Of a stretch of DNA of 64,000 nt, positions 27,333-46,340 are shown one piece after another; positions within the stretch are counted from its first letter, which is position 1, and every line of letters begins with the position of its first letter. Source of the stretch: Pseudomicrostroma phylloplanum (lineage: Eukaryota > Basidiomycota > Exobasidiomycetes > Microstromatales); assembly GCA_039545275.1 (NCBI GenBank), contig BCHS01000018.1, positions 362,771 to 426,770 on the forward strand, written 5' to 3'. Both the position numbers and the translations under genes were made by a program. The notes under the pieces were generated by a model, which did not search any database, had not been told where the DNA came from, and saw nothing but the letters and a program-made list of their open reading frames with translations.

Positions 27333-28989
27333 ATGGCAGTCACAGCCTCTCCATTGCCATCGTCCGTAGGATGCGATTCGTATTCTGCCGATGCTGGCGC
27401 AAGCTACGTGTCTCCGGACACGCTCCGTACACGTTTCTCGACGGCGCTGTCTACAATGTACAGAAATGAGGTCCCACTGTACGGCGATCTTATCAATTTG
27501 GTGACCGATGTCAACCACGATGTTCTCTCAGCATGTTTAACAGCAGGTCGAATTAAGCCAGTCGCTGACGAAGATCTTATGCGGCTCACACTCGAGAGAC
27601 ACGGCGCCATACGAGTCGGCACAGCGGCTGAATTTGCAGTATTGGCCAAGATCTTTGTGCTGCTAGGTATGAGTCCAGTCGGCTTCTACGATCTGTCAGA
27701 TTGTGGTCTGCCAATTCAAGCCACCGCTTTCAGACCCATCGTAGAGGGCGCCCTGCAACGCAACCCTTTCCGAGTCTTCACATCGCTACTGCAGCTGGAC
27801 CTGATACCCGACGCTCAGTCTCGCGAGCTGGCCCAGTCGATCTTGCAGAAGAGAAACATCTGTCCCGATGCTTTGAAGCAGCTTCTGGAACGAGTCTTCT
27901 CGGGTGTACAAGAGGGCAAAAGGCCACTTTTGACCGAGCAGGATGCTGCTGCCTTCATTCCGCTCGCCATCGATGTCTTCAGGTGGCACAGCAATACTAC
28001 TGTGTCGCAAGTAGACTACGAGGCTCTGAGAGAAGTCCATCCCCTCATCGCGGATATCTGCTGCTTCTCTGGCCCTCATATCAACCACTTGACACCGAGG
28101 ACTTTGGACATCGATGCGGTTCAACAGGGGATGAATGCCAGAGGGTGAGCATCGATCAGCATCGCTGCAGCGCTTTGGAAATGGAACAAAACCTGACAAC
28201 AACGGCCCACTGTACCTCTCCCACAGCATCGACGCCAAAGAGATCATAGAAGGTCCTCCGCGACGGTTGAACAATATCCTGCTGCGACAGACGTCATTCA
28301 AGGCTTTGGAAGAGGCCGTGTACTTCCTCGACCCATCGGCAGACGGTGGACGCACTCTCGGCCACCATACCGCCCGCTTTGGCGAGATCGAGTCGCGAGG
28401 AGCGGCACTGACCCGGAAAGGGCTGAGACTGTACCAGAGCCTCATGAGCAGCTTCAACGACTCGGAGCAAGAAGCTGCTAAATTCGCCTCGACCTACCAG
28501 GAGCGACTGGAGGTTGCATTTAGCAGCTTCCCAGATGATCTTGCTGCAATGCGAGAGCATGGACTAGCTTACTTTACCTATTCTCTACACAACCGTGACT
28601 ATTCAGAGGCGGCGGCAACACGAAGTGCAACGTGGTCCAGCTATTCTTCAGCCCCTTTGTTGGGAGAAGCTCTTGCACAGCACCGATTAGTCCTCCGCTA
28701 TGCGCCGATCACGTACGAAGACTTTCTACCGCAGAGCGCCGCCGGCATCTTCAGCTCGAACCTGGCCTCGTCTGCAAAAGAGAGCAACACCTCGAGCCGA
28801 TCCGCTTCGCCTGCCGCCAGTGAAGGCAGAGACGACAAGAAGAAGGCGTTCGAGGGGCAGATTGGACTCAGGATCGGCGACTATTTTGATTTGTACGAAG
28901 AAGCGCAGAGGCAGAGCGTCAAGGCTGTGGCAGATAAGCTGAGCATACCTTTCGAGGAAGTGCATCTGGCATTGGTCGGTCGAGAGTAA
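27333..28989 (+). CDS. DUF1338 / HglS-type 2-oxoadipate dioxygenase-decarboxylase
   Basis: The characterised bacterial member HglS turns 2-oxoadipate into 2-hydroxyglutarate with O2 and Fe(II) in lysine catabolism. Exons 27333-28144 and 28227-28989 give 524 residues; the intron sits inside a Gly codon of NARG-IDAKEIIEGPP. Family marks are LERHGAIRVGTAAE (first metal His, and an Arg four residues later as in HglS), HINHLTPRTLDIDAV (second metal His), IEGPPRRLNNILLRQTSFKALEE and FGEIESRGAAL with the third metal ligand Glu. The C-terminal about 100 residues include a Ser-rich linker. Shares a divergent promoter with a zinc-cluster regulator. Substrate is assigned by family; some DUF1338 proteins are untested. 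Confidence 0.85.
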
Positions 28990-30886: not shown

Positions 30887-31315
30887 TTATTCAGTGGCAC
30901 GTCGGCCATTGGAGTGAGGAGGATAAGGGTCCTCGTATTCATCTCGTCGACCGTGGCCGAGGCGAGGAGGAGGAGGAGGGGGAGAAGATGGGAACTCCCC
31001 AGTGTCCCCGTCTCGCTTGCCGTGGTTGTGGCGGGGAGGAGGGGAAGGAGGGAACTCCCCAGTGTCGCCGTCTCGTTTGCCGTGGTTGTGGCGGGGAGGA
31101 GGGGAAGGAGGAAACTCTCCAGTGTCGCCATCTCGCTTGCCATGGTTGTGGCGGGGAGGAGGAGAAGGAGGGAACTCTCCAGTGTCGCCGTCTCGGAGCT
31201 GCAGGCCTCCTTTGGCTACCGCAAGACCTCCAATAGGACTAGAGCTGACCAGTTGAGCACATGCTGGAGCAAGGAGAACGATGAGCAGAGTTTTCCACAG
31301 TGCCGGAAGCTGCAT
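30887..31315 (-). CDS. Secreted tandem-repeat peptide precursor with dibasic (Kex2-type) sites
   Basis: A single-exon protein of 142 residues that I do not recognise as a named family. A hydrophobic signal peptide (MQLPALWKTLLIVLLAPACA, predicted cut near residue 20) is followed by a short spacer to residue 41. Then come three identical 20-residue units, DGDTGEFPPSPPPRHNHGKR (42-101), a variant unit of 23 residues ending GHGRR (102-124) and a last unit DEYEDPYPPHSNGRR (125-139). Every unit begins with Asp and ends Gly followed by KR or RR. Such layout is typical of Kex2-processed repeat precursors in fungi (pheromones, repellents, ustiloxin-like RiPPs). It faces away from the FabG-like gene and converges on the SDR. 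No Cys in the units. Function unknown. Confidence 0.75.
   Translation of the reverse strand: MQLPALWKTLLIVLLAPACAQLVSSSPIGGLAVAKGGLQLRDGDTGEFPPSPPPRHNHGKRDGDTGEFPPSPPPRHNHGKRDGDTGEFPPSPPPRHNHGKRDGDTGEFPSSPPPPPPRLGHGRRDEYEDPYPPHSNGRRATE
30944..31192 (-). repeat. 60-bp tandem repeats coding the precursor units
   Basis: Three 60-bp units (31192-31133, 31132-31073, 31072-31013) and a diverged 69-bp unit (31012-30944). Among the three 60-mers, six positions vary (for example C/T in the 8-bp start and G/A at the 32nd base of the printed line) and all are synonymous on the minus strand. Confidence 0.9.
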
Positions 31316-34161: not shown

Positions 34162-35922
34162 ATGCGACCCTTTCCTGTCTCACCGAGGTCCTCAGGCCTC
34201 CCTCTTCGCTCGGACTGTGCTCCAGTCGCACGTACCATGCAAGCTACGAGCAATCGTCGTCAAAGACCTACCTCGCTCAACCTGTCTGCTGCACACAGCA
34301 AGAGGGTCTCGCGAAGCTTCGACAAATTCCTCCTACCAACCGATCTGCCTCGGGCAGCTATGCCTGCCATCAAGCCCAATGCTGGCAAGAAGTGGGTGGA
34401 CGGTCTGCTGAAGGTAAAGGACTTTGGGCTCGAAGGGGAGAGACTGGTCACAAGAGCCTCTTCTATGACAAGAGTCTCTTCTATGCCCTCTGAAGAGCAT
34501 CCAGAGCATACAAGAGCCTCCTCCGAAAGACCAATGAGTCTCGACCTAAGTCGACTGAGTACGACTTCTCGCGACTCAGTTGACAGTGGCAGACAGACTT
34601 CAAGGAGGGTTCCACCACCACTCCGCGTTAGCGCCCGTCAGCCTTCTATCGATGAAATCGCATCGATACGTCCCAGCTCGGTAGTGATGACTGGAGTCAC
34701 GTCTCTGGGAACTTCCATCAACAGAGCACTGCGTGCCCCACGACCTTCTATGGACCTCATCTGGACGAGCAAACCGACTGCTGAGCCCTCCGGAGGGTCA
34801 CCGATGGCATCGAAGCTGCATTATCCCACGGAAGAATGGGTACCAGTCCGCTTGCTGATGAATACCGAGCTGGAGGAGCCAGGTCTTCAAGCAACAGGCA
34901 GCGCGCCAGTCCCGGCAGAGCTTCCTCAGGCACCATGCGCAATCAGCACTGAGATCTTTCAGGTTTCTCCCAGAGACATCGGTCTAGTGTCGGCCGAAGA
35001 CGCTCGAGGGGTCTCGCCTTCAGCAAGCTCAGAGGGGTCGGTGTACTCCCGCCCTTCCGCCCTCCCTGCGCTACAGTCTGGCTTGTGGGGTCCCAACCGC
35101 ACCTCTCGAATGTCGAAGGGCGGTCTGCTCTCGGCACTTCCCGCTGGCGTTGGGCCCAATGTCAGGTCCGCCAGACCTATTGTGACCTTGACGCCCTTCC
35201 TCGAAGGCACCCCGGTCATAAGCGCCAATCCACCAGAGTCGCTGGGTGCCTGTCAGATCGGTAGTGGCGGGACGCTGTCCAGCGATGGGGCATCGTCTGG
35301 AGCTTTGTCTGGGCTACCCCGATCCGTGGGAGAATCGAGTGGGGAAGGCGTGACCACAGCTGCACTACAAGAGAGCAAGGATTCGCTCATGAAGCACGAG
35401 AGTCCTTTAGAGCAGCAGGGGGCTTCGCTTTCTGAGCCGTCATCGCTACCCCGGCCTCCCGAACAGGCAGCATACCACCCTTTCAGCCACTATTCTCTTC
35501 GAACAGTGGCCAGGTCGACTCTGCCAGAAAAGGTGCCCATACCGTATTCTGTGCCCAGCGGTGCCTCGGCTGAAGCAGTGAGCCAGGACATCGAGATCGA
35601 TGCAGGGCAGCCATGGGCCTGGTCATGTTCGCATCCTATCTCCCCCTCCACTTCAGCAAGACCAAAGTCGACTGTCAAGCGCCCGAACACTTTTGAGCCA
35701 CCCCCTACTTACTCTCGAAGGCGCGCTTCCGTCTTTGAAGGTCATCATGCACAAGCTCAGCAGGGCGCTCGAACCCTTCTCGCTGTTCAACGACCATGCA
35801 CGGATCCCAAGACTCTCGTGGGTGGCCTGCTTGGCCCTCGTGGGCGACGACTGAGCATCGTGCTGCCCCCTGTTGCGACCATCAGTAAAAAGACACTGGC
35901 TGTCCAGGTGGTCGGCAATTGA
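34162..35922 (+). CDS. Ser/Pro-rich protein of unknown function (586 aa)
   Basis: I do not recognise it. One open frame without introns, preceded by a TATA box. The only island that looks folded or conserved is near residues 50-90 (RVSRSFDKFLLPTDLPRAAM, then KPNAGKKWVDGLLKVKDFGL). The rest is Ser-, Pro- and Arg-rich with repeated SxR and TRASS/TRVSS phrases and a possible duplicated motif near residues 95-120. No signal peptide or membrane segment. Codon usage and the length of the open frame support a real gene. Likely a disordered, possibly phosphorylated regulatory protein; this is inference. Confidence 0.65.
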   Translation: MRPFPVSPRSSGLPLRSDCAPVARTMQATSNRRQRPTSLNLSAAHSKRVSRSFDKFLLPTDLPRAAMPAIKPNAGKKWVDGLLKVKDFGLEGERLVTRASSMTRVSSMPSEEHPEHTRASSERPMSLDLSRLSTTSRDSVDSGRQTSRRVPPPLRVSARQPSIDEIASIRPSSVVMTGVTSLGTSINRALRAPRPSMDLIWTSKPTAEPSGGSPMASKLHYPTEEWVPVRLLMNTELEEPGLQATGSAPVPAELPQAPCAISTEIFQVSPRDIGLVSAEDARGVSPSASSEGSVYSRPSALPALQSGLWGPNRTSRMSKGGLLSALPAGVGPNVRSARPIVTLTPFLEGTPVISANPPESLGACQIGSGGTLSSDGASSGALSGLPRSVGESSGEGVTTAALQESKDSLMKHESPLEQQGASLSEPSSLPRPPEQAAYHPFSHYSLRTVARSTLPEKVPIPYSVPSGASAEAVSQDIEIDAGQPWAWSCSHPISPSTSARPKSTVKRPNTFEPPPTYSRRRASVFEGHHAQAQQGARTLLAVQRPCTDPKTLVGGLLGPRGRRLSIVLPPVATISKKTLAVQVVGN

Positions 35923-36629: not shown

Positions 36630-39600
36630 CTACTTCTGCGTGAGCGACAACAGGGGAATGAGACGGGACTGGATGTGGTTACCGCAGGGCTTGGTAAAGA
36701 GATCTGCCGGATTCATGGAGGTGGGAACGTGCTTGACCTCGATGGTGTTAGTCTGGACCAGGTCACGGAGGAAGAAGTACCTTGTATCGATGTGTTTTAA
36801 TCGCCAGTGTTGAGTGGGGTCCTTGGCGACCTGAATGCAACCCATGCTGTCGGTGAACACGGTGGGCTTGGGGTGGTAACCGAGCTCTCGTAGTAGGTTT
36901 CTCAGGAATAGGACTTCTCGTGCAGCTTCTGATCCTGCAACTAACTCTGCCTCAACGGCTGAGAGCGATACGCACTTTTGAACTTGAGTTTTCCAAGTGA
37001 CCGGGCAGCCAAAGACGAAGGCTACTGAGCCTGAGGTGCTTTTGCGTTTGGAGTGTGGATCGCTTGACCAGTTAGCATCGGTGTAAGCAACAATACCATC
37101 GTCCAGTTGTGGACAGTATATGATGACCCAATCGATAGTCTTGGCCAAATATTTGATCACTCGTAGGGCAGCGTCGAGGTGGATTTGTGAACATGATGAC
37201 ATGTGTCTCTGCAGTATGCCTACTGCGAAAGATATGTCGGGCCTCGAGTTATTGGCTACCCAGGTGAGCTTTCCGACGGCTCTTCGGTATACCTTCTGAA
37301 CGTCCTTGTCTAGATCTGTGTGTGGTGGCGTGACCTGCATTGGCGTCTTGGCATGGCCACCTTCTGGTGTGAACTCCTTGATGATTGCGCTTATGTACCC
37401 GTGTTGACTCATGTTGAGTGTACCAGCTGTGCGGTCGTACTCGATGTTGATACCGCAAAACGACGTGATGTGACCTTTGTCTTCTAACTTGAATCTCTTT
37501 AGGAGAGCAGCCTTAGCGAGCTCCAAGTCCGGTAGGGAGTTGGATGCCCACAGGCAATCATCAACATAACATGCTACGACGATGCGGCGCTCGCTTGGTC
37601 CTTTCATGTAGATGCATGGTGCTGCAGAGAGTGGGATAAAGCCTTCTTGTCTGAGAGCCGTGTCCAGTTGCTGATTCCACAACCTTCCGCTCTGCTTAAG
37701 GCCGTAAAGTCCCTTCTCGATCTTGTAGACCTTGCCATCTGTCTGTGCGCCGGCAGGAGGCTTCATGTAGATGTCGTGCGATAGTTCACCGTTGAGATAA
37801 GCCTGAGTGAAATCAGTTGTGTGAACGTGCCATCGTTCGGCGACAGCGATGGCGAGAACACTTCTGAGAGCGGTGTAGGGTGTGACCGGCGCAAAGGTTT
37901 CTTCGAAATCTATCCCTTCTTGTTGGGTGAAACCCCTTGCGACCAGTCTCGCTTTGTACTTTAGTGGCGTACCGTCTGGTGAGGTCTTGATCTTGAGAAC
38001 CAGCTTTGAGTCTACCAATCGTTTTCCAGGTGGAGGGTCCACCAGCGTCCAGGTTCCCATGGCTTCGAGCCCTTCAATCTCTCTTCTGATGGCCTCGTGC
38101 CATAGGGGAGCGTTGGGTCCCTTCAGAGCTTGCTGTACCGTTGGTGAATTGGGGTCGTGGGCTTGAGCAAGGCTGACCCATTCTTGGGTGACTTCTTGTG
38201 AGAGCTCGTCATCCTCCTCGTCGTACGTGGTGATCTGCTCTTCATTGTCGAAGGTAATGTCTCCTTCATGTTCTAGATCTTGTTGAAGCTCGCTGTGATA
38301 GTGTTCAATTGCCTCTCGGTCGCGTTCGGCAATAATGTCGATGACAGAGTAGGTCAAGTCAACGACGTCTTCTCCTTTGTCGGCGAATAGGACCCGGTTG
38401 TCCACTAAGTCTCGCCAATTGGCTACATCTCGTCGATGACGCCACTCTTTATCATCGTAGAACTTTGCGCTGTTAGACCAGAACGTTGACGGGCTGGCGT
38501 GCGGAGAGTAGAACTTCATCCCTTTGTGCTCCATCGAGATACCGAGAAAGATGGCTGGGATCCCTCGTGGTCCGCCCTTTCCTCCTACCCTTTTCTTCTC
38601 AGGGACGAAACATGTAGCGAGGCATGCGAAAGGGTGCAAGAGTCTAGCTAGTCTTGGGGCATCCGTTCGATCCCAGAAGACCTGGTAAGGGATGGTGCCA
38701 CCATCCCTGACGGTGAGGTTGTGTGTGAACGTGACGTATTCGAGAGCTTCTGGCCAAAGGCTGTAGGGAGCGTTCTTACCGATGAGGGCTGCTTGCATTC
38801 GTTCTCGTAGCGTGCGTATCATCCTTTCTGCCTTCCCGTTCCCGCGGGAGTCATAAGGCATCGTCAGTTCCCAGATGATCCCCATTCTTGCCTTCCAGTC
38901 GAGGATCGCATTGCTCTTGAAGACCATGTCGTTGTCGGATCTGATGATCTGAACCGTCGAATTAGTCTGTCGTTCAGCCAGGGTGACGAATTCCGTTAGC
39001 GCCTGAGCTGCGTGGCCTTTGTTCTTGAGTGGGGTGACGTTGACGTATGACGAGTAATCATCGACTATAACTAGAGCGTATTGATATGCTGAATGGCCGG
39101 CGAACTGTGACAAGATGTCTATGTGAAGCCTGTGTAGAGGGCGTGGGGACTTTTCGTAGGACGTGTGTCTGGGCAGTCTTGCCTTGGTCAACTTGCTCAT
39201 TGCGCATGGTTCGCAGTCACAGGTGGCGGAGTGACCCTCGATCGCCTCTGGCATCAATGCCTGCAATGTCTTTCTTTCTTGCGCTGGACCGGGATGTCCT
39301 AGGGCTTCGTGAACTGTGTTGGAGTCGGTGGCCACCATGATCTCTTCCTTGACCTCGTCGTGGGTGCTGCTGGTCGCGGCAAAGTGCAGCCTGGACTCTT
39401 CTGTCGGTCGTGTGAACGTGATACCTCCTCCTTGGGGAAGGTTGAAGACGGTCTTTCGGCCTTGTAGCCAATGTACATCGGTGCCGTCGTCGACGAGTCT
39501 TCCTTCTGAAACGAGATTGCCATTTGCTTGTGGCACGTAAAGTACCTTGTTGAGTGTGATTTCCGATTTGTCGATGGTGAGGTCGACCTTTCCCGTAGCC

Positions 39601-39755
39601 TTGTAGTCTAGTATCTGATCCCCCAATGTGGAGACGCGTCCGGTAGCTTTCTTGGTATCATACATGATGTCTGAGTGACTGGTAACGTGCTTCGATGCTC
39701 CTGAGTCTAAGGTCCATATCAATTCTTTGTTTGTACAGTGGTTGGCGACCTCCAA
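36630..39755 (-). CDS. Copia pol: protease, integrase, reverse transcriptase, RNase H
   Basis: An intact frame of about 1041 codons. Protease active site DSGA is at residues 17-20. The integrase has a zinc domain (HEALGHPG ... CDCEPC, about 149-184) and the catalytic Asp213, Asp274, Glu310. Reverse transcriptase shows TDFTQAYLNGEL and the YVDD box at about 730-733. RNase H residues lie at YTDANW (about 893), SAVEAEL (about 936) and TDSMG (about 969). The printed start at 39755 is a TTG; the frame is in fact the continuation of gag after one UAG and five sense codons, so pol is probably made by readthrough or the UAG is a mutation. Confidence 0.93.
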   Translation of the reverse strand: MEVANHCTNKELIWTLDSGASKHVTSHSDIMYDTKKATGRVSTLGDQILDYKATGKVDLTIDKSEITLNKVLYVPQANGNLVSEGRLVDDGTDVHWLQGRKTVFNLPQGGGITFTRPTEESRLHFAATSSTHDEVKEEIMVATDSNTVHEALGHPGPAQERKTLQALMPEAIEGHSATCDCEPCAMSKLTKARLPRHTSYEKSPRPLHRLHIDILSQFAGHSAYQYALVIVDDYSSYVNVTPLKNKGHAAQALTEFVTLAERQTNSTVQIIRSDNDMVFKSNAILDWKARMGIIWELTMPYDSRGNGKAERMIRTLRERMQAALIGKNAPYSLWPEALEYVTFTHNLTVRDGGTIPYQVFWDRTDAPRLARLLHPFACLATCFVPEKKRVGGKGGPRGIPAIFLGISMEHKGMKFYSPHASPSTFWSNSAKFYDDKEWRHRRDVANWRDLVDNRVLFADKGEDVVDLTYSVIDIIAERDREAIEHYHSELQQDLEHEGDITFDNEEQITTYDEEDDELSQEVTQEWVSLAQAHDPNSPTVQQALKGPNAPLWHEAIRREIEGLEAMGTWTLVDPPPGKRLVDSKLVLKIKTSPDGTPLKYKARLVARGFTQQEGIDFEETFAPVTPYTALRSVLAIAVAERWHVHTTDFTQAYLNGELSHDIYMKPPAGAQTDGKVYKIEKGLYGLKQSGRLWNQQLDTALRQEGFIPLSAAPCIYMKGPSERRIVVACYVDDCLWASNSLPDLELAKAALLKRFKLEDKGHITSFCGINIEYDRTAGTLNMSQHGYISAIIKEFTPEGGHAKTPMQVTPPHTDLDKDVQKVYRRAVGKLTWVANNSRPDISFAVGILQRHMSSCSQIHLDAALRVIKYLAKTIDWVIIYCPQLDDGIVAYTDANWSSDPHSKRKSTSGSVAFVFGCPVTWKTQVQKCVSLSAVEAELVAGSEAAREVLFLRNLLRELGYHPKPTVFTDSMGCIQVAKDPTQHWRLKHIDTRYFFLRDLVQTNTIEVKHVPTSMNPADLFTKPCGNHIQSRLIPLLSLTQK

Positions 39756-39770
39756 TGGTCGCCCTATTTC

Positions 39771-40973
39771 CTAATTGCTTTCAGCGGTAGCTAGATCGTT
39801 TGCAGAGTCGTTGGTCGAGGCCGCTGCCTCCTTGTTGTTGTCCTTTGCGTTCTTGTCCTTCTTAGGATAGGGACAGTTCTTAGCAATGTGTCCGGTGCGG
39901 TCGCAGTTGTAGCACTTGGCGGGCTCATCTGGTCGTTTGGGGTCTCGTCGTCCTACCAGATACGCTTCCTGCTTAGTGAGGGGAGCAGATGACTTAGCTT
40001 CCGACTGCTTGCCCGTTGTCTTGTCTGATGTTGCCAGCGCCGCGTTGCGGGGTCCTCTGCCGGGTGGCTCGTGCCTAGTTCGGTACTGCCTTCTGAGAAG
40101 TGCTGCGCATACAGCGTCCCAGTTCATCATTTCGCCCGTGCTTTCGAGTGTCTCCCAAACGTCGCCGTAGACCTGAGTGTACATGGTAGCTGAGGCCAAC
40201 GCGGTGGTCTGCTGGTTGGGGTCGATGTTAATGTTGACGTTGGCTGCTCTCGTTACGAGCTCGTTAATCTCAGAGATGAGCTTGTCTACGTCGTTGTTGT
40301 GTAGCCTAAGTCGTGAGAGCTCCAAAAGTACCGTGCTTGCGACGATGGTCTCACTCTTCGTGAGGGAGTCGTGCATGTGATCAAACAAGTCCTTGCCGCT
40401 GGTCCACTTCTTTCGATTGATAACGTGTTTGATGTTGTTGCTAGACTCTTTGTCGGACACAAAGCGAAGAGCGGCTACCAGCTTTCGGTCGAGTACTGGG
40501 TCGTATTCCGCGTGGTCTTCGTCTACGTCTCCGAACAACATGTCCTTTACTGCAGGCATGCCGTCCCAGACGTTTTCGAAGTCCAAGATCCAGGAATGCC
40601 AGTTCTTGGTGTTCAACTTGTAGAGGCGATCGAGTGCCTTCCTTACTGCTTTGGGCCAGTCGTTGCCATCCTCTACAGGAGCAGATGCTGGCGCAGATGC
40701 CGGAGCAGGAGCAGGTGCAGTGACTGTGATCGGTGCCACGGGAGGGAGTACTGGGGCAGCAGCAGCTCTGACTGCCGCTGAGACGAATCCTCGCTTCTCG
40801 TTGGCGTCGTGTTGTACCTTGGCGAGTTCCATTAGCTGAGGGTTGGTCATACCGGCTGGCTTCTGAGCCAAGAGAGCGTTGTAAACGTCTAGGATCGTCA
40901 GAAGCGTGGTAACATCGGGAGCTTCGACCGGAACGTCTTGGGAGTTGTCAGCATCAACCTGTTGTTCAGACAT
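39771..40973 (-). CDS. Copia gag with CCHC zinc knuckle
   Basis: 400 residues. The middle matches the UBN2/retrotran_gag type (KALDRLYKLNTKNWHSWILD, then LRLHNNDVDKLISEINELV). A single zinc knuckle, CYNCDRTGHIAKNC, is near the C-terminus, flanked by basic residues. An Ala/Pro repeat occurs near residues 65-95. It ends with UAG at 39773-39771, followed in the same frame by pol. Confidence 0.92.
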   Translation of the reverse strand: MSEQQVDADNSQDVPVEAPDVTTLLTILDVYNALLAQKPAGMTNPQLMELAKVQHDANEKRGFVSAAVRAAAAPVLPPVAPITVTAPAPAPASAPASAPVEDGNDWPKAVRKALDRLYKLNTKNWHSWILDFENVWDGMPAVKDMLFGDVDEDHAEYDPVLDRKLVAALRFVSDKESSNNIKHVINRKKWTSGKDLFDHMHDSLTKSETIVASTVLLELSRLRLHNNDVDKLISEINELVTRAANVNINIDPNQQTTALASATMYTQVYGDVWETLESTGEMMNWDAVCAALLRRQYRTRHEPPGRGPRNAALATSDKTTGKQSEAKSSAPLTKQEAYLVGRRDPKRPDEPAKCYNCDRTGHIAKNCPYPKKDKNAKDNNKEAAASTNDSANDLATAESN

Positions 40974-44795: not shown

Positions 44796-46340
44796 CTACC
44801 TTTGTGGCGGGCCAGCAGGACCGCCGGGCCGACCGGGTCCACCAGGTCCGCCAGGTCCGCCAGGTCCCCAGTAACCTCCGTGACCACCGGTGAAATCAGT
44901 GGTACACTGAGGCTGAGCAAAGTCCTCCTTGGTGCCCATTGGCCAAATTGGCAATTTGCAGATCTCATGAGCTTGACAGCCTCGACACTGCTTCCAGGTC
45001 GTCCAAGAAAGGTAGCTTTTCAGCTCAGTAGCAGTATCGAATGCCTTCTGAGCGTCTCCATCGTCGATGGCGTCCCAAGCAGTCCAGATACTTGAGCACA
45101 TCTTGTGGACGACCTGACGCACAGCTTGCGCAGCTACTGACTTGGTTGCCGACGAGGAGGATGTACTGTCTGGCCAGAACTGATGGACACATCTGCCGAC
45201 CTCTGCGTCCCTGTTCCTGTTTGCGAAGTCTATGTAAGGCCGGCGCATCATCTTGAGTTGTTCTTTGAACGACTTCTTTTCGCCAACGAGCGTGAATAGA
45301 TACTCGAGACGGTTGGACCATCTAGCTACGTACATGTCCACTACTGCTTGCCAGTCGATGGCGTCGGTTTCGGGAGTCTTGCCACTGAGAGCCAATGATT
45401 GTAGCAGATCTCTTGTGATCTGGATTTGCTCAGAGTCGGCGTACATGCGCGGTCTACCTTCCTCGTCGATGTAGGTAGCATTTGGGAGAGCAAACATAGT
45501 GATGAAGCTGTCATAGTCGAGAGTCACCCTTCCCCCTCCAATGCCATGGTAGCGCGACGCGACGGCCTCGTAGTAGGCGTAGTGATCGAATTCACCGGGA
45601 GCTTCGACTTGCTTGATGTCGATGACGTCGAGGACCTCAGCAAAGGAGCAAAGGATGATTTCGAATCCTCCCTCCATCCGCAGAATGCCATCGATGGTTC
45701 CTGCCCAGCTCTCCTGAGCAACCCGACACAGGTCCTCAGCCCTCTCAAATTCTCCGTCCCCAGGCATGGGATCAGCTGTCGCCTTTTTGCGAATGACGAG
45801 GTCTTGAGTGTCCAGGGTGCCAAAGTCAGATTTGGCAGCCGACTGACCATCCAGATATAGGAGGCGCAATGGACGACGGGTCTTGTAGGTATGCAGAAAG
45901 CCATGGCCTGACCGGGCAACGCTGCTGAGAGTCGAGCTGCTGAAGGGGATCTGTTCTTGCTGTTCACGAATCGACGGAGGCAGCCCGCGTCCTGGTCCGC
46001 CCCCAGGTCCGCCCCCAGGGAATCTCCCGAGACCCATCGAGGCGAACAGGAGCGCATGTTCCGCCTCGAAAGCAAGCCATTCGGTGCCATTGATCCGGTA
46101 CTCGTGGGACGTGCCGTGGTAGAACTCTGTATCTTGCGGAACAGAGGCAATATAGAACCCCAAGCCGTTGTGATTCAGGGAGGAACCAAACTGTCGCATG
46201 GAGCTATGGATGGCATTGAAGATGTCATTGGCGTAGGTGAGGGGGTCCAACGAGGGGGCCTTCAAGGCAGGGGCGGGGATCGAAGCAGCTCTGGCTGCGC
46301 AAAGTGCAAATGCAAGGACAAAGGCAGTGACTTGTCTCAT
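44796..46340 (-). CDS. Secreted conserved fungal protein with collagen-like tail (514 aa)
   Basis: Single exon. A signal peptide (MRQVTAFVLAFALCAARA, cut near residue 19) leads a protein of a widespread uncharacterised fungal family, recognisable by FYHGTSHEYRINGTEWLAFEAEHALLF, RPLRLLYLDGQSAAKSDFGT and DGILRMEGGFEIILCSF. Gly/Pro insert GRFPGGGPGGGPGRG sits near residue 110. Cys-rich end WKQCRGCQAHEICK is followed by a collagen-like Gly-Pro-Gly tail. Likely extracellular or cell-wall associated. Molecular function unknown; no catalytic motif I can name. It is the last well-formed gene before the gene desert. Confidence 0.8.
   Translation of the reverse strand: MRQVTAFVLAFALCAARAASIPAPALKAPSLDPLTYANDIFNAIHSSMRQFGSSLNHNGLGFYIASVPQDTEFYHGTSHEYRINGTEWLAFEAEHALLFASMGLGRFPGGGPGGGPGRGLPPSIREQQEQIPFSSSTLSSVARSGHGFLHTYKTRRPLRLLYLDGQSAAKSDFGTLDTQDLVIRKKATADPMPGDGEFERAEDLCRVAQESWAGTIDGILRMEGGFEIILCSFAEVLDVIDIKQVEAPGEFDHYAYYEAVASRYHGIGGGRVTLDYDSFITMFALPNATYIDEEGRPRMYADSEQIQITRDLLQSLALSGKTPETDAIDWQAVVDMYVARWSNRLEYLFTLVGEKKSFKEQLKMMRRPYIDFANRNRDAEVGRCVHQFWPDSTSSSSATKSVAAQAVRQVVHKMCSSIWTAWDAIDDGDAQKAFDTATELKSYLSWTTWKQCRGCQAHEICKLPIWPMGTKEDFAQPQCTTDFTGGHGGYWGPGGPGGPGGPGRPGGPAGPPQR

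Follow-up and report, generated by a model that had tools for sequence, protein, structure and literature searches.

A putative Kex2-processed repeat peptide precursor in Pseudomicrostroma phylloplanum with a relative in Microstroma glucosiphilum

What does a fungus make from a short open reading frame that begins like a secreted protein and then repeats itself, each repeat closing on Gly-Lys-Arg or Gly-Arg-Arg? Such a frame lies in the window, by which is meant the whole 64-kb stretch of Pseudomicrostroma phylloplanum DNA analyzed here. The preferred reading, which is given a probability of about 0.82, is that the frame is a gene for a Kex2-processed repeat protein (KEP), that is, a precursor from which a kexin would cut short peptides; that probability covers the precursor and its processing and does not extend to the role of the peptides. 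Several other readings of the same layout have been considered, among them surface-active repellents, cyclic peptides, amidated hormones, wall proteins and mimics of plant hormones, and these are weighed below against the composition of the repeats, the content of the genome and the only relative that was found.

The gene occupies 30887..31315 on the minus strand as one open frame of 142 aa, with its ATG at 31315 and its stop at 30887-30889; the earlier note had given this protein without a strand, and one plus-strand frame translated across 30887-31315 yields a different protein. The start is placed as in the relative from Microstroma glucosiphilum, BCV69DRAFT_301193. The N-terminus, MQLPALWKTLLIVLLAPACA, is a hydrophobic leader, reaching a Kyte-Doolittle mean of 2.75 in its best 11-residue stretch and containing an A-x-A site, and residues 1-20 (31256..31315) form a probable signal peptide, likely cut between ACA and QLVSS by the -3,-1 rule as applied by eye. 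The signal peptide proposed earlier therefore stands as a signal-peptide-like leader, with a similar leader in the homologue. It is followed by a pro-region, QLVSSSPIGGLAVAKGGLQLR (residues 21-41; 31193..31255, minus strand), which ends on a single Arg in the motif LQLR (LQIR in BCV69DRAFT_301193).

Five units follow on the same strand. Unit 1 is the 20-mer DGDTGEFPPSPPPRHNHGKR (residues 42-61; 31133..31192), and unit 2 (residues 62-81; 31073..31132) and unit 3 (residues 82-101; 31013..31072) encode the same peptide with different silent bases. Unit 4 is the 23-mer DGDTGEFPSSPPPPPPRLGHGRR (residues 102-124; 30944..31012) and unit 5 the 15-mer DEYEDPYPPHSNGRR (residues 125-139; 30899..30943), after which the precursor ends with ATE and the stop. 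Translation thus reproduces the three identical units, the 23-residue variant and the 15-residue unit that had been described, all five beginning with Asp and ending in GKR (three) or GRR (two). The claim of five processing units is correct as to their number and needs qualification as to their processing, since the single Arg of LQLR precedes unit 1, which leaves four of the five flanked by dibasic pairs on both sides. Unit 1 may consequently retain the pro-region unless another protease cuts there.

The array is not a product of chance. It is the top tandem repeat of the window, with a score of 358 against 70 for the next, and among the window's 208 ATG-initiated open reading frames of at least 60 aa it is the only one with at least three KR- or RR-bounded fragments that have their last eight residues in common. 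Furthermore, the three 60-base units differ in six columns, all of them third codon positions, and all 12 pairwise differences are silent, a pattern with a chance of about 0.00065 if changes are random and two thirds of them are transitions. One antisense frame is likewise silent at 12 of 12 differences, so the silent changes alone do not fix the strand; the reading frame is settled, on sequence comparison, by BCV69DRAFT_301193. The homologue and the silent-only changes among the repeats together led to rejection of the idea that the frame is not a gene. The gene looks real, and the original observation of a repeat precursor is confirmed.

Single-sequence and two-sequence profile searches of 5.8 billion proteins, the profile search scoring the 7983 candidates with the most words in common, found one relative only. 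This is BCV69DRAFT_301193, a hypothetical protein of M. glucosiphilum (Exobasidiomycetes, Microstromatales), which aligns with 92% of the query at 63% identity. The search for homologues in related fungi that the earlier note had proposed as a check was answered by a protein of similar leader and layout. The first 41 residues of the two proteins are identical at 31 positions, and both contain the same DGDTGEF units. They differ in that BCV69DRAFT_301193 is 185 aa long, is divided into seven fragments of which only some are common to the window precursor, lacks an RHN unit and terminates in HP with no basic pair. It also contains, at residues 133-167, a third core type, QTYEDPWSHAP...HPHGRR, in which YEDP followed by Tyr or Trp is common to the 15-mer and the initial Gln could become pyroglutamate.

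Units 4 and 5 recur in BCV69DRAFT_301193 with every residue intact (23 of 23 and 15 of 15, or 38 of 38), in swapped order. The chance of such identity is 7.5e-7 at 0.69 per site and 2e-4 at 0.80, figures that take the sites as independent, use one neighboring gene as the baseline and concern two exact units that were picked afterwards. Because two cores are exact between two species and the changes among the repeats are silent only, these sequences suggest that the peptides themselves, and not the spacing of the sites alone, are under selection. In addition, the array has been rearranged around these two cores without altering them, which indicates that the function would reside in the peptides.

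Other searches returned no further relatives. The organism's own genome (17.08 Mb, 20 contigs), searched with the precursor and with BCV69DRAFT_301193, contained only the window's copy; the precursor matched no Pfam family and no solved structure; and 83 and 36 pattern matches in the viral and prokaryote collections included none that was confirmed as a relative. The locus tag BCV69DRAFT_301193 appears in none of the seven papers searched for it.

The surroundings of the gene also bear on its relationship to the M. glucosiphilum locus. At 34162-35919 on the plus strand lies a gene for a 586-residue protein with no Pfam family, for which three relatives were found among 7990 scored candidates, one from M. 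glucosiphilum (69%) and two labeled jgi (86%) and lgn (68% over 79%). The M. glucosiphilum protein is identical at 403 of 587 positions and, like BCV69DRAFT_301193, is listed on a contig of 467586 bases, and this common listing suggests that the window locus and the M. glucosiphilum locus are shared. The Pfam scan of neighbors covered 17 of 57 open reading frames of at least 150 aa. A Copia-type retroelement (36630-40973, minus strand) is separated from the KEP gene by about 5 kb; its open reading frame contains RVT_2, an integrase core and Pol_BBD and is preceded by a zinc-knuckle frame. A 2-oxoadipate dioxygenase/decarboxylase (HGLS) gene is present at 27333-28986 on the plus strand in two open reading frames, probably split by an intron. 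Finally, a 514-residue open reading frame with no Pfam match (44799-46340, minus strand) contains GC-rich tandem repeats at two places, one close to the C-terminal end (44808-44871) and the other close to the start (45994-46019), possibly encoding Gly/Pro runs.

The genome encodes enzymes of the families that KEP processing would call for. A kexin is represented by PF00082 (S8) and PF01483 (P domain) in one open frame, there are 13 stretches matching the S10 carboxypeptidases, the family of Kex1, and DPPIV_N has one match. In the proposed pathway, the leader would direct the precursor into the secretory pathway, the kexin would cleave behind each KR or RR pair, and the basic residues would then be removed by a Kex1-like S10 carboxypeptidase. 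The predicted exported products are linear peptides, namely DGDTGEFPPSPPPRHNHG (an 18-mer, in two or three copies), DGDTGEFPSSPPPPPPRLGHG (a 21-mer) and DEYEDPYPPHSNG (a 13-mer), all hydrophilic and bearing His and Pro, with GRAVY values of -1.82, -1.27 and -2.25, respectively. Their calculated average masses, in the same order, are 1914.0, 2114.2 and 1519.5. The C-terminal Gly would be kept as a free Gly and not converted to an amide. The proposal of a Kex2-processed repeat precursor is thus upheld in its repeat layout, its homologue and the kexin of the genome, and the release of the peptides is predicted.

These features place the gene in a class that is already large. According to the KEP survey, 1345 of 1461 strains encode 7878 KEPs, basidiomycetes having a mean of 5.30 per strain, and most KEP types are confined to a single genus (PMC7329392). 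The KEP pipeline is described as looking for repeats separated by KR or RR with at least four fragments of at least two residues (PMC6339444), and the window precursor has six fragments after residue 41, three of them identical, together with the hydrophobic leader core and A-x-A site noted above and a kexin in the same genome. It is therefore like the described KEPs in its leader, its KR- or RR-bounded repeats and its accompanying kexin; it differs in that the searches reached BCV69DRAFT_301193 alone, and the comparison with the surveys is one of class description, not of KEP type (PMC6339444; PMC7329392). Accordingly, the word "new" applied to it in the earlier note suits this sequence family and not its kind, which belongs to a known class of fungal peptide precursors (PMC7329392). 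As far as these searches show, with the KEP surveys compared by description, the family is new only as a member of the KEP class.

Experimental evidence on such peptides comes from mushrooms. Mass spectrometry of Coprinopsis cinerea and three edible mushrooms is reported to have shown KEP peptides that are linear and little modified, from a class described as common and of largely unknown function (PMC9769878). These peptides resemble the predicted ones in coming from a basidiomycete and in being short and linear, and DDDPEGPPAPSW is likewise acidic at its start and Pro-bearing; they differ in that several of those detected begin with pyroglutamate, and the likeness is one of description and not of alignment (PMC9769878). 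In pure culture none of six kep knockouts is reported to have shown a phenotype, which the authors read as pointing to a role in relation to the biotic environment (PMC9769878). Extending that judgment to the present peptides, it is possible, at somewhat short of even odds, that they serve as a lineage-specific signal or effector, acting outside the cell in encounters with the plant or with other microbes.

Among the rival readings, one is that the protein is never cut, being a secreted or wall protein rich in proline whose basic pairs act as spacers only. Proline-rich repeats with charged linkers are indeed common in wall proteins, but dibasic pairs end all five units and two units are exactly conserved with their ends included, so this reading is improbable. 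A little less probable again is a surface-active repellent of the Rep1 type that coats aerial hyphae, an idea raised by the subphylum that the fungus has in common with Ustilago maydis and by the same precursor logic, a Kex2-cut repeat precursor within the Ustilaginomycotina (PMC7329392; PMC6339444). Rep1 peptides are, however, given as 37 residues long and as forming surface-active fibrils in a title cited by PMC6339444, whereas the window cores are 13-21 residues long and strongly hydrophilic (GRAVY -1.27 to -2.25, values for the three window cores alone), and the repellent reading named in the earlier note is set aside as improbable.

A ustiloxin-type cyclic peptide (a dikaritin) formed by UstYa oxidases, which had also been suggested, would likewise start from a repeat precursor with a leader; the 15-mer does contain Tyr, and a P450 lies about 11 kb from the KEP gene. 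Tyr is missing from the main core, though, and UstYa-type neighbors are reported at only 103 of 1680 basidiomycete KEP genes (PMC7329392). In addition, PF11807 (DUF3328, UstYa) found no match in the genome, a weak absence given that the control genomes were unmatched as well. This reading is highly improbable and the suggestion finds no support here. Least credible of all is the animal-style arrangement to which the earlier note had likened the units, in which Kex2 and Kex1 would leave a C-terminal Gly for conversion to an amide by PHM/PAL. Gly does precede KR or RR at all five sites of the window precursor, but in BCV69DRAFT_301193 it does so at four of six (the exceptions being LARR and HPRR), so that Gly is not invariant before the dibasic sites once the relative is included. 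PAM is reported as missing throughout fungi (PMC6529398), and the PHM gene that the earlier note proposed to look for was not detected, PF01082 and PF03712 being unmatched in the genome and, which makes the absence weak, in 14 control genomes as well. An alpha-pheromone-like KEP was considered separately and rejected, since the XA or XP dipeptides of STE13 are absent and the units start with DG or DE, although a DPPIV_N gene is present.

The last rival concerns the sequence of the repeated core itself. The PPSPPPRHN of the three-fold unit recalls two plant hormones, IDA (PIPPSAPSKRHN; PMC6971993), whose Arg-His-Asn end is read by the co-receptor SERK1, and RGF (DY...PPRHN), some members of which end in PPRHN (PMC11534595). 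In both cases the likeness lies in a Pro-rich stretch before Arg-His-Asn. Compared with its shuffles, the core of units 1-3 scores high against IDA (p 0.001) and against RGF (p 0.004); for the whole panel p is 0.003, and the joint p over three units and four families is 0.006. The true p is weaker because the hormone families were chosen after the motif had been seen. As to the PIP-like Pro-rich dodecamer of IDA/IDL peptides, the 20-mer core alone gave a low shuffle p (0.001), and the likeness is tentative. Of 1508 Pro-rich 18-mers from the other frames of the window, none attains the core's IDA score and a fraction of 0.002 attains its RGF score, and when the 14747 20-mers of the window were scored against the standard IDA peptide, the six that did at least as well as this core all lay in the KEP gene. 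The 15-mer shows a weak likeness to RGF (p 0.024; panel p 0.08). For these tests, the IDA panel kept nine of 14 variants, the five ending in CN or SS being dropped; the RGF panel held 15 sequences, with GLV8 and SlRGF2 left out; the PSY panel held five (the subset in one passage) and the CIF/TWS1 panel five; and there was no CLE, CEP, PEP or PSK set. From the seven fragments of BCV69DRAFT_301193, standard-IDA scoring took four types and the shuffle test three. Both sets left out SDKTPLWDLARRR, and the 23-mer and 15-mer entered a single time, as units of the window precursor.

The motif nevertheless fits neither hormone at its ends. IDA/IDL peptides are described as ending in a free Asn after Arg-His, and HAESA is reported not to have bound IDA with extra residues past Asn (PMC4848090), whereas the unit here reads RHNHG-KR. 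RGF/GLV peptides begin with Asp-Tyr and end in Asn, whereas Tyr is absent from the 20-mer; EY and PPHSN do occur in the 15-mer, yet Gly stands before RR at its end. Moreover, RHN is absent from BCV69DRAFT_301193 and from unit 4, and unit 4 and three BCV69DRAFT_301193 units gave panel p values of 0.25 to 0.63. As to fungi, IDA-like genes are reported in two species (PMC8618561), and RGF genes were reportedly sought in U. maydis and other microbes and not found (PMC8708909). Mimicry of IDA or RGF is therefore very improbable, as is the fuller proposal that one precursor, cut by Kex2, yields in several copies a peptide imitating these hormones through Arg-His-Asn, which would be a hormone mimic encoded in tandem and processed within the fungus itself. 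Microstroma is plant-associated, and in a leaf the extra His-Gly might be lost, or it might leave the peptide acting as a competitor and not as an activator. Should this weak resemblance prove true, it would matter much more than a further KEP family.

The reading as a KEP gene remains the preferred one. If confirmed, it would give the Microstromatales a two-species peptide family in which two cores are identical in both species, with defined masses for peptidomics and one small gene for genetics. A KEP whose cores are fixed within a remodeled array would thus offer a tractable case.
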